DNA from: Micrococcus sp.
Lineage (GTDB): Bacteria > Actinomycetota > Actinomycetes > Actinomycetales > Micrococcaceae
Direction of reading: 5' to 3'
Length of the DNA: 64,000 nucleotides
Assembly (NCBI GenBank): GCA_029961105.1
Contig: JASBVO010000004.1
Location: forward strand, 124,001-188,000
Shown here in pieces: positions 6,243-13,871 of the stretch (position 1 is the stretch's first letter; every line of letters starts with the position of its first letter). A program made the position numbers and the translations under genes. The notes under the pieces were generated by a model. The model saw nothing but the letters and a program-made list of their open reading frames with translations. It had not been told where the DNA came from and ran no database searches.

Positions 6243-7904
6243 GTGACCTCTCGACCACCACGACGCCGGCCCGCCGCGCGCGCGACCGCACGGACCCTGG
6301 GCGCCGCGCTGGCCGTGCTGGTCGCCGGTGCCGTGGCCGGCTGTGACGTCCAGGGCGCCGGCTCCGCCCCGTCAGGCACGACGTCGGCCCCCGCCCCGTC
6401 CTCCGTGGCCGCCACGGGTGCCACGGCCGCCTCGTCCACCGCGGCCGCCCCGTCCGGCGCGGCGAGTCCTGACCCTGCCGCGGCCCCGGCCAGTCCGTCC
6501 TCGACCGAGGGTTCCTCGGCGGGCGCCTCGCAGGCCCCCTCCTCGTCGGCCGCGGCGGGGGAGTCGTCGGCCACGGATCCTGCGGGCCTTCCCGACGGGC
6601 CGACCACGCTGGCCGAGGTGCTCGGCCTGCCGGACCTGACGCCGCTGCTGGACCCGATGCCCGATCCCGAGGTCCTTGCCCCCGAACTGGACGAGGCGCT
6701 GAGAGTCTCCTCGGGCACGATGTCCGCGGCCGTCGTCGACGCCCTCACCGGCGAGGTGCTCTACGACCGGGCGGCCGAGGACCCCGCGGTGCCGGCCTCC
6801 GCCGTCAAGATCCTCACCGGCCTGGCGGCCCTGGAGGTCCTGGGCCCGGACCACCGCTACACCACCGCGGCCGTCGCCCTGCCCGGGCACGCGAGCGGCG
6901 AGGACGTCACCCACGTGGTGCTCGATGCCGGCGGTGACGTCCTGCTCGGTACCGGGGACAACGCGAAGTCCACCGACGGGCGCGCCGGCCTCGGAACGCT
7001 GGCCCGCCAGGCCGCGGAGGAACTGGCCGAGCGAGGCACCTCCGGGACGGTGACCGTGCGCCTGGACGTTTCCGGCTACACCGGTCCGGCCGCCTCCCCG
7101 GACTGGAGCCCGGACATCGTCCCCTCGGGCAACGTCTCGGTCGTACAGCCCATCGCCACCCACGGCGGTCGCCCCGTCAAGGGCACCGGCACCAACCGCC
7201 TGCATGACCCGGCGTTGTACGCGGCCGAGGTCTTCCGGGATCACCTGGCCGAGCAGGTCGCCGAGCGGGACCTCGACGTCGAGGTGGCCGACGACGTCGG
7301 GCGGCTGTCCCTGAAGGGCCGCGGGAGCGAGCTCGCCAGCGTGCAGTCCGCCACGGTGGCCCAGCAGGTGACCCACATGCTCAAGACCTCGGACAACCAG
7401 GTCGCCGAGGCGACCGGCCGGAACCTGGCACTGGCGGCCGGCGAGGACGGCAGCTTCGAGGGCGCCGCCCGTGCGATCGAGGACACCCTGGAGGGACTCG
7501 GGGTGGACACGGCCGGGCTGGACCTGGTGGACGCCTCCGGGCTGTCCGGGAAGAACCGGGTCTCCGCGCTGCAGTTGACCGAGTCGCTCCAGGTGGCGGC
7601 CACGGATCCCGAGCTGGAGGCGGCCGCCACCGGACTGCCGGTGGCCGGCCGGGAGGGTACCCTCGAACACCGTATGGTCGGCTCACCGGCCGAGGGCGTG
7701 GTGCGGGCCAAGACCGGGACGCTGAGCTCGGTGGCGTCCCTGACCGGCACGGTGAAGACCGCGGACGAGAGGCAATTGGTGTTCAGTTTCATCGCCAACG
7801 GCCAGCCCGGCGTCCTGACCGACGCCCGCCTTGCCGTGGACCGCGCCGCGGTGCTGCTGGCCGGCTGCGGTTGCCGTGCGGACGCGGCGGATCCGGGACG
7901 GTAG
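6243..7904 (+). CDS. dacB: D-alanyl-D-alanine carboxypeptidase/endopeptidase (PBP4 type), probable lipoprotein
   Basis: SxxK (SAVK), SDN and KTG active-site motifs; N-terminal lipobox-like VAGC followed by Ser/Ala/Pro-rich linker. Confidence 0.85.
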   Translation: MTSRPPRRRPAARATARTLGAALAVLVAGAVAGCDVQGAGSAPSGTTSAPAPSSVAATGATAASSTAAAPSGAASPDPAAAPASPSSTEGSSAGASQAPSSSAAAGESSATDPAGLPDGPTTLAEVLGLPDLTPLLDPMPDPEVLAPELDEALRVSSGTMSAAVVDALTGEVLYDRAAEDPAVPASAVKILTGLAALEVLGPDHRYTTAAVALPGHASGEDVTHVVLDAGGDVLLGTGDNAKSTDGRAGLGTLARQAAEELAERGTSGTVTVRLDVSGYTGPAASPDWSPDIVPSGNVSVVQPIATHGGRPVKGTGTNRLHDPALYAAEVFRDHLAEQVAERDLDVEVADDVGRLSLKGRGSELASVQSATVAQQVTHMLKTSDNQVAEATGRNLALAAGEDGSFEGAARAIEDTLEGLGVDTAGLDLVDASGLSGKNRVSALQLTESLQVAATDPELEAAATGLPVAGREGTLEHRMVGSPAEGVVRAKTGTLSSVASLTGTVKTADERQLVFSFIANGQPGVLTDARLAVDRAAVLLAGCGCRADAADPGR

Positions 7905-7908
7905 CCGG

Positions 7909-9672
7909 ATGGGCCAGGTGATCGCGGGCCGCTTCGAGCTGGCCGACCACATCGCCTCCGGGGGCTCCGGGTCCATCTGGGCCGCGTGGGACCGGCGGCG
8001 GGAGCAGTGGTGCGCGGCCAAGGTGCTTCGGCACAAGGACTCCGGCGAGCTGCTGCGCTTCGTGCGCGAACAGGGCATCCAGCTCGACCACCGCTACCTG
8101 GCCACGCCCTATGGCTGGGCGGCCGAGGACGAGGACGTGGCGATCTCGATGCCGCTGGTGGCCGGCGGCACCCTGGACACCGCGCTGAACGACCACGGCG
8201 CCTTCTCCTCCGCCCTGGCCGCCCGGATGCTGCTGCAGTTGCTGGACGCCCTGGACCACGTGCACCACGCCGGCTGGATCCACCGGGACGTCAAGCCGGC
8301 GAACATCCTGCTCGAGCCCACGGGGGAAGGCATGCCCCACCTGCGCCTGGGTGACTTCGGGATCGCGGTCCGGGAGGACGATCCCCGGTTCACCACGATC
8401 GGCTGGGTGAACGGCACCCCCGGGTACCTGGCCCCGGAGGCGATGGACCTGGCGGCCCCGGCGCCCGCGCAGGACCTGTACGCGGCCGGCGTCGTGGCCC
8501 TGCGCATGCTGGACCCCACGCTGCGGGGCGAGCGCGGGCTGGAGGCCGCCGTGCTGGACCCGCGCCGGACCCTGGCCCGCATCGACGGGGTCGATCCGCG
8601 ACTGGCCTCCGTGGTGGCCGGGTTGCTGGACGCGGACCCGGACGACCGGGTCGCGGTCGCGGAGCGCGCACCGCGCACCCTGGACGTGCTCGCCGCGCCG
8701 CAGAGGGCGGCCGGCGGTTACCTGACAGCGGCCGGGGAGCCGTTCGCGGTGTTCCGCCAGGTCGAGGTCGGGGTGGCCACGGAGGGCGCCGCGGGCGTGG
8801 CCGGCGTCGGCCAGGACGCCGCGGCGCCCCCGGGGCCGGGCCCGACGGCGGCTCCGGGGCCCGCCCCGGACAGCGCGGCTGCCGCGCCGGTCCAGTCGGC
8901 GGGAACTCCCGGTGTTCCCGGTGTTCCCGGGGACGCGGCGTCCGGCCCCGAGGTTTCTGGGAGCCTGCCGCGGGTGCCCGCGCCACCGGTCAGGACCCCG
9001 CGGGTGGGCAGCCCGTCGACGGGCCGGGTCGTGGCCGCGGGCGGGGAGGAGCCGGTCACCGGCAACGGGCCGGAGGCGCAGCCCGGACGGGTGGCTCAGC
9101 CCGGACGGGTGGCTCAGCCCGGACGGGTGGCTCGGCCGGCACCACAGGCTCCGCCCGCACCGCCGAGGCCCGGACGGACCGTGCCGGCGGGCCGCGGCAT
9201 GGGCGCCGTCCTGCCGTGGGCCATGGTGGTGCTGGGCATCGTCGCCCTGGTGGTGGCCGCCGTCCTGCTGTGGCCGGACGGTGAGCGCGCCGGAGCCCGC
9301 GGTGACCCAGGAACCGGGACGGAACCGACGTCACCGGCTGCCCCCGTGACCTCCTCGCCCGGGGACCAGGGCCCGCCCCGGGCCGGACGGCCTGAGGCTG
9401 GCGCGCCGTCCGGTGCCACGTCCGAAGGCGCCACCGGTGCGGCATCCGAAGGCACCACCGGCGCCGCGCCGACGAAGAGCACGCCCCCCGCCCCGGAGCC
9501 GGATCGGCCCACGCAGTCCGGAACGTCCGGGACGCCGGTCATCACCAGCTCCGTCCGCGCCGGGGACGACTGCACGGTGCTCGAACGCGGACTGGTCGTC
9601 ACCGGTGCCGACGGCCAGCGGCTGACCTGCGTGGAGGACGGTGCGGGGCAGGCCTGGACGGCCGGCGGCTGA
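7909..9672 (+). CDS. Membrane Ser/Thr protein kinase, Pro-rich juxtamembrane region, one TM helix, short extracytoplasmic tail
   Basis: ASGGSGSIW Gly-rich loop, HRDVKPANILL, DFG; TM AMVVLGIVALVVAAVLLW; ATG 7909 is 4 nt after dacB stop. Confidence 0.88.
   Translation: MGQVIAGRFELADHIASGGSGSIWAAWDRRREQWCAAKVLRHKDSGELLRFVREQGIQLDHRYLATPYGWAAEDEDVAISMPLVAGGTLDTALNDHGAFSSALAARMLLQLLDALDHVHHAGWIHRDVKPANILLEPTGEGMPHLRLGDFGIAVREDDPRFTTIGWVNGTPGYLAPEAMDLAAPAPAQDLYAAGVVALRMLDPTLRGERGLEAAVLDPRRTLARIDGVDPRLASVVAGLLDADPDDRVAVAERAPRTLDVLAAPQRAAGGYLTAAGEPFAVFRQVEVGVATEGAAGVAGVGQDAAAPPGPGPTAAPGPAPDSAAAAPVQSAGTPGVPGVPGDAASGPEVSGSLPRVPAPPVRTPRVGSPSTGRVVAAGGEEPVTGNGPEAQPGRVAQPGRVAQPGRVARPAPQAPPAPPRPGRTVPAGRGMGAVLPWAMVVLGIVALVVAAVLLWPDGERAGARGDPGTGTEPTSPAAPVTSSPGDQGPPRAGRPEAGAPSGATSEGATGAASEGTTGAAPTKSTPPAPEPDRPTQSGTSGTPVITSSVRAGDDCTVLERGLVVTGADGQRLTCVEDGAGQAWTAGG
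9079..9132 (+). repeat. 3 x 18-bp perfect tandem repeat inside the kinase gene
   Basis: (cagcccggacgggtggct)x3 encoding (QPGRVA)x3. Confidence 0.95.
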
Positions 9673-9750
9673 ACCGGGACGGCCCGGCGGGGACGGCCTC
9701 GGTCATCCGGAACCGTCCCCCGGCGGTCGGCGTGCAGGCGCCGGTGACGC

Positions 9751-11130
9751 TCAGGCGCTGTGCCGGCGTCGGCGCAGTAGCAGCCAGGCCACTCCAGTGA
9801 GAACGGCACCCAGCCCGACCCCGCCCAGCAGGGCGCCGAGCTCGGTGGTGGACGGCAGCCACCCACCGGCGTCGCGCGCGCTCGCGGCCTGGGCGTCATC
9901 GCCCTCCGCGGCCTCCCCGCCGTCAGCGGCCTGCTCGTCCTGGGCCGCCGCCAGCCACTCGGTGGAACCGGCGGGATCGCCCGTGAGCTCGACGGCCAGC
10001 TCGACCCGGAACGGTTCACTGCCCTGGCGGCCGCCGCGCGGGGTGCCGGCGTCGACCACGATGTAGTAGTCACCGGCGTGCCGCAGGGATCCGTAGGAGG
10101 AGTCGTAGTTGTCCGGGCTGACGGCCACGGCCGTGGAGTGGGTGATGGTCCCGCCGGCATCGTTGTAGGACAGCGTGTCCGAGCCGATGGTGCTGGCGTC
10201 CACGAGCAGCGGGCCGTAGAGGTCGGTGCGCACCAGGCTCACCCTGCTGTCCTGGTTGTTGCCCGTGGAGAGCCGGTAGTTCAGGCGCTGGCCGTACTGG
10301 ACCGGCACCCTGAAGTACCCGGACTGCAGCGGTTCCAGTTCCGTCGAGTAGACCTGCCCGGGGGCCAGTTCCGTGGCGGTGGTGAAGGAGGTCCCGCCCG
10401 TGACCTCGCTGGCCTGGCCCGTCGTGGTCACGGACTCCGGGGGCAGGTCCGAGGAGGGGGCCTCGGCCAGGGCGGACTCATCGACCGCGGGCTCCACCGC
10501 GAACCGCAGCTCGACCGGAACCGGCTCATCCGCCTGCCAGGCACCGGAGCGGCTGACCTGGGCGATCACCACGCCCGAGCCGTCCTCGAAGCAGCCGAAC
10601 AGTGACTCGGGGTCCATGGGGCCGCTCGAGGTCGCCGCGACGGGCACGCCCTGGCCACCGCTGACGGTGTAGTCCGAGTCCCCCATCCCGCAGTCCTCGC
10701 CCTGCTCGTTGAGGAACTGCACCCCGATGGTGGCCGCGCCCGAGCCGGAACGACTGGCCGAGGCGTCCAGCGCCAGCACGGCCGAGACATGGGCGCGCTC
10801 GCCCTCCTCCAGCGCCGGCAGCCGGTAGTACCTGCTCGATTCACCGCCCTCGGTGCTGTCCTCGCTGGCCTCGATGACATCGCGGTACAGGCCCGGCTGG
10901 ACCTCGACGGCGGCGGACAGGGCCGTGCCCCCGGTGACCTCGGTGCCGGAAACCTGGTAGGCGACGACATCGGCGCGGGCCGGCTCCGAGGCCGCCGCGG
11001 TGCCGGACGCGGCCACCGGGACCGGGACCGGGGCGGGGGACGCCAGGGCCGGTGAGACGACCCCACCGGCCAGGGCCGCGGCCAGGGCGAGGGACGCGAC
11101 GGTGCGAGCGGTTCGTGCGGTGGTCCTCAT
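9751..11130 (-). CDS. Secreted membrane-anchored protein; vWA-less paralogue of the ectodomain encoded by the upstream gene
   Basis: Signal peptide, C-terminal TM + RRRR; two-part ectodomain aligns by eye with residues after the vWA domain of the 11127-13244 product. Confidence 0.8.
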   Translation of the reverse strand: MRTTARTARTVASLALAAALAGGVVSPALASPAPVPVPVAASGTAAASEPARADVVAYQVSGTEVTGGTALSAAVEVQPGLYRDVIEASEDSTEGGESSRYYRLPALEEGERAHVSAVLALDASASRSGSGAATIGVQFLNEQGEDCGMGDSDYTVSGGQGVPVAATSSGPMDPESLFGCFEDGSGVVIAQVSRSGAWQADEPVPVELRFAVEPAVDESALAEAPSSDLPPESVTTTGQASEVTGGTSFTTATELAPGQVYSTELEPLQSGYFRVPVQYGQRLNYRLSTGNNQDSRVSLVRTDLYGPLLVDASTIGSDTLSYNDAGGTITHSTAVAVSPDNYDSSYGSLRHAGDYYIVVDAGTPRGGRQGSEPFRVELAVELTGDPAGSTEWLAAAQDEQAADGGEAAEGDDAQAASARDAGGWLPSTTELGALLGGVGLGAVLTGVAWLLLRRRRHSA

Positions 11131-13244
11131 CGCTGCTGTCCTTCCTGGTGCGGCCAGTAGGCCTGCGTGGTCGCGGTCGCCTCGTCGGGACGACTCCGGC
11201 TGAGCAACAGCGCCGTGGCGCCGATCGCCGCGCTGCCCAGCAGGCCGCCGAGGAACCAGGGCAGGGGGTTGCCGCCGCCGCTGTCTGCCGGCGCTGCCGC
11301 GGTGGCCGTATCGGCGCCGGCATCGTCTTCGCCGGAGCCGGAGCCGGAGCCGTCGGAGCCGGCCGAGGCCGGCACCGCGTCCCCATCGGCCGGAGCGGTC
11401 TCGGCCGGGTCAACCGGGTCGGACTGCGCTCCGGCCCGGACCACCTCGCCGGTGCCGGGCTCGGCGATCATCGGGCCGTCCTGCTCCTCGCCGGTGACGT
11501 CCAGTGCCAGCTCGTAGGCATAGGCCTCGCGGTTGCGGTCACCGGACCACTTCTCCGCCGAGACGACCACGTAGTAGTCCCCGGCCAGGTAGGCGTCGTC
11601 GCCGACCGAGCCGTCCCGGTTGGACTGGCTCACCGGGACGCGCATGTTCTGGGTGATGGTCTCGCCCGTGTCCCCGCGCCACAGCCGCTGGTCGCCGACC
11701 ACCCGGACCGGCTCGCGGACGGCGGAGTAGACGTCGAGGATGATCCCGTTGGGCCCGGCCTCCTCCACGTTCCCCTGGGAGGCCCGCACGTTGAGCCGCT
11801 GCCCGTAGCCGACGTGCACGCGGTAGTAGCGGCTCTCCTCCGGCATCACCGAGTCGGCCAGCACGGTGCCGTTGTCCACCTCGGTGGCATCGTTGAAGCT
11901 GCCGCCGCCCGGCACCGCTGTGGCCGCACCGGACAGCTTGACCGACTGGGGCGGCAGGGCCTCGCGCGCCGGCTCCTCCAGGGTGGACTCATCCACCGCC
12001 GGCTCCAGCACGTACTTCAGCTCCACCGGCAGCGGCCGGTCCGACTGTCGCTCACCGGTGCGCATGACCTTGGCGAACAGCTGGCCGGTGCCGTCGGCGA
12101 AACAGCCGCTCGTGGCGCCCTCCTCGTAGTCCTTGTTGACCACGTAGCCGGCGATCGGCCGCCCGCCGTCGTCGGAGAACCGGTAGGGACGGTCGGCGGA
12201 CGAGCAACTGGCGCCCTGGCCGTTGACGAGCTCGACCACCAACCCGGCAGACTCGTTCGGGGTGTCCTTCCCGTCCGCCTCGGGGACGAGCAGGGCGGAG
12301 ACGTGCGCCCGCTCGCCGGGGGAGATGGTGCCGAGGTTGTAGAACTTCATGGTGCCGTCATCGGAGTTCAGACTGGAACCGCCGCGTTCGAACTCGTCCA
12401 GGTACTGTCCCGGCGTCAGCTGGGGCGAGGAGTGCAGCGTCTCCCCTCCCTCGACCGGCGTCCCCTGCGGAACGTACCCCTGGAAGGCCCGGACCGTCTT
12501 CGTCTGCAGCTCGGTCTGCAGCTCAGTGGCGTTGTCGGCCTGCACGTAGGTGCCGCCGGTGGCCTCGGCCACGCAGGTCAGTTCCTCGCGGGCGGCGTCG
12601 TTGACCTTGAAGCCGATGGTGTGCACGGTCAGGCCGATGCCCTTCCCGGCCAGCTCCTGGGCCGCCTCGCAGGCCGGTGGCTCGGAGCAGTTCTCCTCAC
12701 CGTCCGAGACCAGGATGATGGACTTCTCGCCGTCGATCCCCTCCAGTTCCTGTGCCGCGTGCAGCAGCGCCGCGCCGATCGGGGTCTCGCCGACCGCGTC
12801 CAGGCCGGCGATCTTCTTCTTGAGGGCGCCGACGTCGGTGGGGCCCACCTTCTGCAGCGTGGTGATGTCCTTGCAGTCGCCCACGGTGTTGGCGCCGTAG
12901 ACGACCATCCCGAGGTCGGCGCCGTCCGGGGCGTTGTCCAGCAGGCTGGTGGTCGCCTCCCGGGCCGCGGCCAGCCGGGTGGTGCCGGATGCGTCGGCGT
13001 CCTTCTCCAGCATGGAGGAGGAATAGTCCATGACCACGACGACGGGCTGCAGGGTGCCCTGCCCGTCCTCCGGCGCTCCGGACGTACCGGCCGAGGGTGT
13101 GGCGTGGGCGGGGGCGGCCAGCAGGCCGCCCAGGACCAGGGCGAATGCCGTGATCAGGGAGGAGGCCCGGACCAGTACGGCCGGGCGGCGCCGGGGCGCG
13201 GGCGGTGCGCCCGGTGACCTTCGGCGTGCGGTGGTGTCCATCAT
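11127..13244 (-). CDS. Secreted membrane-anchored von Willebrand factor A domain protein
   Basis: MIDAS: DYSSS...ETPIG...SDGEEN; signal peptide; C-terminal TM; stop overlaps next ATG (ATGA). Confidence 0.88.
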   Translation of the reverse strand: MMDTTARRRSPGAPPAPRRRPAVLVRASSLITAFALVLGGLLAAPAHATPSAGTSGAPEDGQGTLQPVVVVMDYSSSMLEKDADASGTTRLAAAREATTSLLDNAPDGADLGMVVYGANTVGDCKDITTLQKVGPTDVGALKKKIAGLDAVGETPIGAALLHAAQELEGIDGEKSIILVSDGEENCSEPPACEAAQELAGKGIGLTVHTIGFKVNDAAREELTCVAEATGGTYVQADNATELQTELQTKTVRAFQGYVPQGTPVEGGETLHSSPQLTPGQYLDEFERGGSSLNSDDGTMKFYNLGTISPGERAHVSALLVPEADGKDTPNESAGLVVELVNGQGASCSSADRPYRFSDDGGRPIAGYVVNKDYEEGATSGCFADGTGQLFAKVMRTGERQSDRPLPVELKYVLEPAVDESTLEEPAREALPPQSVKLSGAATAVPGGGSFNDATEVDNGTVLADSVMPEESRYYRVHVGYGQRLNVRASQGNVEEAGPNGIILDVYSAVREPVRVVGDQRLWRGDTGETITQNMRVPVSQSNRDGSVGDDAYLAGDYYVVVSAEKWSGDRNREAYAYELALDVTGEEQDGPMIAEPGTGEVVRAGAQSDPVDPAETAPADGDAVPASAGSDGSGSGSGEDDAGADTATAAAPADSGGGNPLPWFLGGLLGSAAIGATALLLSRSRPDEATATTQAYWPHQEGQQR

Positions 13245-13400: not shown

Positions 13401-13871
13401 ATGCCTTCCCCTGTGACGGAGCAGCGACTGGGCCAGCAGCGTGCCATCTACGGGACGTCCCTGGCCGAGCGCTTCGGGGCCATGATGAGCGTCTACCAGC
13501 TCAGTCAGCGTTCCCTGGCCCGCGTCCTGGGCGTCTCCGCGCCCATGCTCTCCCAGCTGATCAACGCCCAGCGCATCAAGATCGGCAATCCGGCCGTCTA
13601 CGAGCGCCTGGTCATGCTGGAGGAGCGCCAGGACGAGCCGGACCCGGAACGCGTGCTGGCCGAGGTGCAGGCCTCGGCGCCAGTCCTCACCACCCACACC
13701 TCCCGCGGACGCCGGCCCGACGTCGGCTCACCCGAGGACGGCGACCTCGCCGCCGGGCTCGCCCGGCTCGCCGGGGCGGAACCGCTGCTGGCGGCGGCGC
13801 AGGCCGCCCGGCGGGCCGGCGGCGCGGACCTGGCCGAGGCGCTCGAGCGGGCTGCCGCGCGCCACGACTGA
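13401..13871 (+). CDS. XRE-family helix-turn-helix DNA-binding protein
   Basis: YQLSQRSLARVLGVSAPMLSQLINAQRIKI HTH. Confidence 0.8.
   Translation: MPSPVTEQRLGQQRAIYGTSLAERFGAMMSVYQLSQRSLARVLGVSAPMLSQLINAQRIKIGNPAVYERLVMLEERQDEPDPERVLAEVQASAPVLTTHTSRGRRPDVGSPEDGDLAAGLARLAGAEPLLAAAQAARRAGGADLAEALERAAARHD

Follow-up and report, generated by a model that had tools for sequence, protein, structure and literature searches.

The gene pair and its ectodomains

The window, by which we mean the whole 64,000-nucleotide stretch of Micrococcus sp. DNA analyzed here, carries two adjoining genes on its minus strand. The first (positions 11127-13244) encodes a 705-residue protein that consists of a signal peptide, a vWA domain (12495-13049), two further ectodomain parts that we call D1 (11955-12479) and D2 (11475-11954), a low-complexity linker and a C-terminal transmembrane (TM) segment (11199-11255). 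The second (9751-11130) encodes a 459-residue vWA-less twin, in which the signal peptide is followed by D1 (10447-10959), D2 (9961-10446), a C-terminal TM segment (9775-9831) and an Arg-rich tail. The two open reading frames (ORFs) have positions 11130-11127 in common as ATGA. In both proteins the N-terminal hydrophobic, signal-like segment and the C-terminal TM segment were identified by hydropathy, and from this topology we predict a secreted vWA domain that is anchored to the membrane.

The vWA domain scores above the curated Pfam cut-offs for PF13519 (VWA_2; 42.1 bits against 27) and PF00092 (VWA; 40.3 against 23.8), and its MIDAS is complete (D73/S75/S77/T154/D181). Across 41 full-length homologues D73, S75, S77 and D181 are invariant, while T154 is Thr in 40 and Ser in the remaining one. 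Invariant cysteines are found both in the vWA domain (C124, C186, C192 and C224) and in D1, where the pair C347/C381 is present in 41/41 vWA proteins and is retained by nearly all twins. An earlier note on this DNA had described the two minus-strand ORFs with their ATGA overlap, and had read the longer product as a signal peptide, a vWA domain with intact MIDAS, a two-part ectodomain and a TM segment. Our ORF reading agrees with the former, and Pfam, the 41-homologue alignment and hydropathy with the latter.

That note also held that the shorter product lacks the vWA domain and repeats both ectodomain parts in order. This is borne out by BLASTP, in which the two ectodomains align with 39% identity over 333 residues (E 6e-56) in the same D1-D2 order, and by pairwise scores of 288 for D1 against D1 (shuffle mean 35) and 269 for D2 against D2 (shuffle mean 33); the two ectodomains are thus homologous, and not unrelated as the note had allowed they might prove. 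D1 is in turn homologous to D2 (hhalign probability 98.4, E 5e-15, 142 columns), and each ectodomain is therefore a tandem repeat of one domain. Names for D1 and D2 were sought in Pfam, NCBIfam and PDB sequences with no convincing match; TIGR03773, at 23 bits against a cut-off of 190, was set aside as too weak.

Modelled with AlphaFold from shallow input alignments of 5 rows, the twin comes out with two beta-rich domains at a pLDDT of 62.7, and the corresponding model of the vWA protein (pLDDT 52) was too weak for use. The top Foldseek matches of the twin model are SIDT1/2 and ColG s3a-s3b, both tandem beta-sandwich ectodomains, although TM-scores are low, at about 0.2 by query; ColG s3a-s3b ranks second, with an E of 2.4e-8 that is to be read against this low TM-score and the pLDDT of the model. 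A tandem beta-sandwich, as in the SIDT ectodomains and the PPC/collagen-binding family (PF04151), is therefore the best fold match, and D2 of the vWA protein would be expected to share it through its homology to D1. On the other hand, likeness to PPC is limited by the same TM-score of about 0.2 and by Pfam, where just 1 of 31 members has a PPC match, at an E of 0.008 that does not reach the cut-off.

Scans for promoters and terminators around the genes gave no signal above shuffles. An 8-bp inverted repeat (ggggacgg...ccgtcccc, 9689-9720) lies between the stop codon of the twin and that of a convergent kinase gene and is possibly a terminator common to both; it has no T run, and the strength of its local folding does not stand clearly above that of shuffles (z -1.6).

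Kinase and HTH genes beside the twin

At the thresholds used, homologues of the vWA protein were found in 33 of 296 genomes of an order sample and 60 of 296 of a class sample, while the D1-D2 profile detected relatives in 29 and 54 genomes, respectively. Loci with ectodomain genes span families f1, f6, f11, f17, f37 and f45. The nearest relatives of the window include two Citricoccus records (L011, L012), while f37 is referred to below as Streptomyces-type, a label suggested by its gyrA/gyrB/recF neighbourhood and by a match to the tail of the kinase SCO3860. Unsupervised clustering of the neighbouring genes returned a Ser/Thr kinase (25 loci) and a small HTH protein (21 loci) as the two commonest families.

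In the window the kinase gene (7909-9672, plus strand; Pfam Pkinase E 1.4e-31) is convergent with the twin and has an alternative in-frame TTG start at 7831. Its product contains the catalytic Lys, an HRDVKPAN loop, DFG and APE motifs, one TM segment and a 132-residue C-terminal tail. Among 39 kinases from these loci, the catalytic Lys, DFG and APE are present in all, a standard HRDxKPxN loop in 38 and a TM segment in 38 (L088 has none in the ORF as read). In 24 of the 39, as in 19/19 of a second, Streptomyces-type set, the chain ends 0-6 residues past a single TM helix, so that these kinases have no ectodomain of their own. The window kinase is an exception, with a tail like those of other Citricoccus-group and some f17 kinases. 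This tail (9274-9669) closes with a two-cysteine motif (DDC...GL...LTC...W) that also occurs in the kinases of L014-L016, L058-L060 and L109. We found no PASTA repeats in the window kinase or its relatives, whose Pfam matches are to kinase-domain families only.

The association of this kinase is with the vWA-less form of the ectodomain. Of 50 evaluable loci that carry a vWA-less copy, alone or paired, 49 have an orthologous kinase next to it, and most of these loci have no vWA copy; the one locus lacking the kinase, within the 12 kb read, is L142. At vWA-only loci, in comparison, the kinase is adjacent in 15 of 32 cases and absent from the vicinity in 17 (Fisher p 5e-8, with related loci not being independent), which indicates that vWA proteins can work without a kinase or with an unlinked one. 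In a later test set, from outside the building of the kinase profile, the kinase was present at 19/19 evaluable Streptomyces-type twin loci. In the 3.3 Mb genome of the window just 6 protein kinases pass the Pfam cut-off, so we estimate the likelihood of chance adjacency at about 1-2%. Where a pair and a kinase occur together, the twin is the closer of the two to the kinase at 8 of 9 loci (L068 is reversed). Three g27 genomes and two g22 genomes have the vWA gene alone at another site without a kinase, while the twin remains beside one. Kinase and ectodomain genes are convergent in the window, L060, L075-L078 and L100-L102 and divergent at L050, L054, L065-L067, L095, L096 and L103, so co-transcription alone is not a sufficient explanation.

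These observations bear on the reading offered in the earlier note, namely a heteromeric complex of the two ectodomains at the cell surface, in which the vWA domain is a metal-dependent ligand or assembly module; we take it as an adhesin or a wall-associated assembly in which the kinase has no special role. Such a complex would fit the occurrence of pairs in the Citricoccus group, G017, G196 and four Streptomyces-type genomes, the near-complete invariance of the MIDAS across homologues, and the sister ectodomains found in each lineage. The genome-neighbourhood survey that the note called for supports it in part: the pair is co-inherited throughout the Citricoccus group, wherever either gene occurs. 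Overall, pairing is not the rule: many vWA proteins have no twin, in some twin genomes no vWA form was found, and most twins have no adjoining vWA partner, a fact that also rules out reading the twin as a satellite of its vWA counterpart. Because most twins lack such a partner and yet have the kinase, and because congeners described below lack kinase, twin and vWA genes together, we consider this reading, with no special role for the kinase, unlikely, although a heteromer as such may form. The earlier interpretation of the pair was incomplete in that it left unconnected the Ser/Thr kinase gene that the twin tracks.

The HTH-type DNA-binding protein is encoded at 13401-13871 on the plus strand, divergent from the vWA gene, and was assigned from an alignment of the family (A1) and from co-occurrence. 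The window protein has no Pfam match, while its Streptomyces-type orthologue reaches 26.7 bits for HTH_31, just under the cut-off of 27. In this family the HTH is mostly followed by 'LT' and then a Ser/Thr-rich stretch; it is conceivable, as conjecture only, that this stretch is a phosphorylation site. In the order sample 12 of 13 genomes with the HTH gene also have an ectodomain gene (Fisher p 8e-13), and in the class sample 39 of 42 do (Fisher p 1e-32); genome relatedness makes both p-values optimistic.

Natural absences separate the HTH gene from the rest. In four congeners (L116-L119) the flanking genes and the HTH gene are in place, while kinase, twin and vWA genes are all absent. Together with L105, L145, L146 and L147, this gives 8 loci with the HTH gene and neither kinase nor ectodomain; L153 was left out of this count because its genome has a kinase and a twin on another contig (L139). 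The joint absences indicate that kinase and ectodomain are gained or lost together; the HTH gene, which persists without them, does not need them and has other duties or is only loosely linked. The joint absences also bear on the possibility that chance or shared regulation has kept the kinase gene in synteny, with kinase and ectodomain proteins serving separately in the upkeep of the envelope. While the Streptomyces-type locus is indeed embedded in a conserved housekeeping neighbourhood (the gyrA/gyrB side), the adjacency persists in several families, across different genomic settings and whether the genes are convergent or divergent, and in the congeners kinase, twin and vWA genes are jointly absent though the flanking genes remain. 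We therefore regard mere synteny as improbable.

Repeated origin of vWA-less forms

Ectodomain duplication, as proposed in the earlier note, is supported by phylogeny, in which lineage-specific duplication is visible. A tree of 71 rows requires no fewer than 7 changes between the vWA and vWA-less states, and these are forced by branches with good support. A single clade of all twins, as expected of one old family, was rejected (AU p 7.7e-51), as was a clade of the Citricoccus-group and Streptomyces-type twins alone (AU p 1.4e-5). Pairs with and without the vWA domain have therefore arisen repeatedly. In separate trees of D1 and D2, vWA and twin ectodomains are sisters to each other within the Citricoccus group, f37, L060, L068 and f6. 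Distances between vWA domains correlate with those between ectodomains (r 0.81; 0/1000 permutations as high), which is consistent with one old vWA-ectodomain fusion. The twins are best read as repeated losses of the vWA domain following duplication, with the direction of change inferred on a tree that has no reliable root.

An old pair homogenised by gene conversion within each lineage would likewise yield sister ectodomains in vWA proteins and twins, as the tree shows. However, within the Citricoccus group and the Streptomyces-type genomes the two forms sort by type and not by genome, the D1 and D2 trees each retain the sister relationship when built separately, and the g27 and g22 copies are unlinked. 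In light of these patterns, we think gene conversion a distinctly doubtful source of the recurrent-duplication pattern.

Other arrangements of these genes were also encountered. There are vWA+vWA tandems at L086, L087, L088, L091 and L152 and three vWA copies at L059, while L140 (5487-9284) has two vWA-less ectodomain genes in tandem next to the kinase and HTH genes. At L094 (6533-8643), a second Streptomyces-type locus, a vWA-D1 protein with a TM segment (421 residues) is followed by a separate D2-only protein (279 residues, with a TM segment), so that the ectodomain is divided between two genes. The vWA gene of L056 (6197-7900) is apparently frameshifted between vWA and D1, which is either real or an assembly error.

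A candidate split receptor kinase

With moderate confidence, we propose that the two surface proteins make up the outer part of an as yet unnamed system in actinobacteria, a split receptor Ser/Thr kinase. In it, the kinase (7909-9672) would be anchored by its single C-terminal TM helix, with most of its relatives lacking an ectodomain, and the D1-D2 protein, held by a TM helix of its own, would provide the ectodomain in trans. Where a vWA domain is present, it may equip a second copy of the ectodomain with an extra module for ligand- or metal-dependent binding. Extracellular binding would then alter the assembly of D1-D2 and switch the kinase through contact between neighbouring TM helices, and the output of the kinase would likely include the adjacent HTH protein. 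Physical contact, the direction of signalling, the existence of a ligand and the role of the HTH protein as substrate or output are what we infer from the gene associations described above. Several observations count against the split receptor: the window kinase, with its 132-residue tail, is not itself ectodomain-less, 17 of the 32 vWA-only loci and the twin of L142 have no kinase nearby, the HTH gene persists alone at 8 loci, and the structure models are weak (pLDDT about 63 and 52). A broader generalization is more tentative, namely that this is a widespread actinobacterial class of receptor kinases whose kinase and ectodomain reside on two different single-pass proteins, where subunits with and without the vWA domain have been produced independently many times and the ratio of vWA to ectodomain is an evolved setting.

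PASTA receptor kinases of the PknB type are membrane Ser/Thr kinases that sense the cell exterior. The putative system described here differs from them in having no PASTA repeats and in placing the ectodomain on separate genes. vWA domains are also found in the TerY-P triad, which is intracellular and clustered with signalling partners. In VMAP ternary systems, intracellular vWA genes likewise occur in conserved clusters with signalling partners (PMC7159879). In both cases the vWA domain is cytosolic, whereas the one considered here is predicted to be outside the membrane, with no MoxR or phosphatase partner noted. A vWA phosphoprotein of S. rimosus, SRIM_014225 (PMC9600765), was set aside, as no tie to the vWA-D1-D2 family was established.

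The closest precedent in concept is GlnX-GlnH-PknG of Corynebacterium and Mycobacterium, where a Ser/Thr kinase that has no sensor is controlled, in the model of that paper, by separately encoded membrane and extracellular proteins of the same putative operon (PMC9769921). While the likeness lies in a kinase governed by separately encoded proteins, the precedent differs in every part: PknG is a soluble protein and GlnX contains four TM segments, whereas here the kinase has its own TM segment and its candidate partner, a putative tandem beta-sandwich protein, crosses the membrane once and may or may not bear a vWA domain. In the open-access literature covered, we found no description of the kinase, ectodomain and HTH module as a whole. 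For one bacterial Ser/Thr kinase that lacks a sensor domain, the D1-D2 protein is a specific candidate receptor. The loci also supply several independent natural repeats of one step, duplication of the ectodomain with a vWA-less copy, and genomes of one genus with and without the whole block offer a natural comparison.

Probable members of the locus appear individually in previous work on Streptomyces coelicolor. SCO3860 is listed as a predicted tail-anchored Ser/Thr kinase in one paper (PMC3087755), and the tail printed there matches the kinases of Streptomyces-type loci almost letter for letter. Its anchor, a TM segment at the extreme C-terminus, is of the kind seen in the 24 of 39 relatives noted above, in comparison with which the window kinase is a relative with an extended tail. 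The passages covered of that paper and of another, on SCO3859 (PMC4457907), mention no ectodomain partner. Orthologues of SCO3860, the kinase of this candidate receptor, are conserved beside gyrA/gyrB in Streptomyces-type genomes. DNA-affinity capture on ssg promoters recovered SCO3859 (PMC4457907), and locus numbering and synteny are in line with its being the HTH protein of the kinase island.
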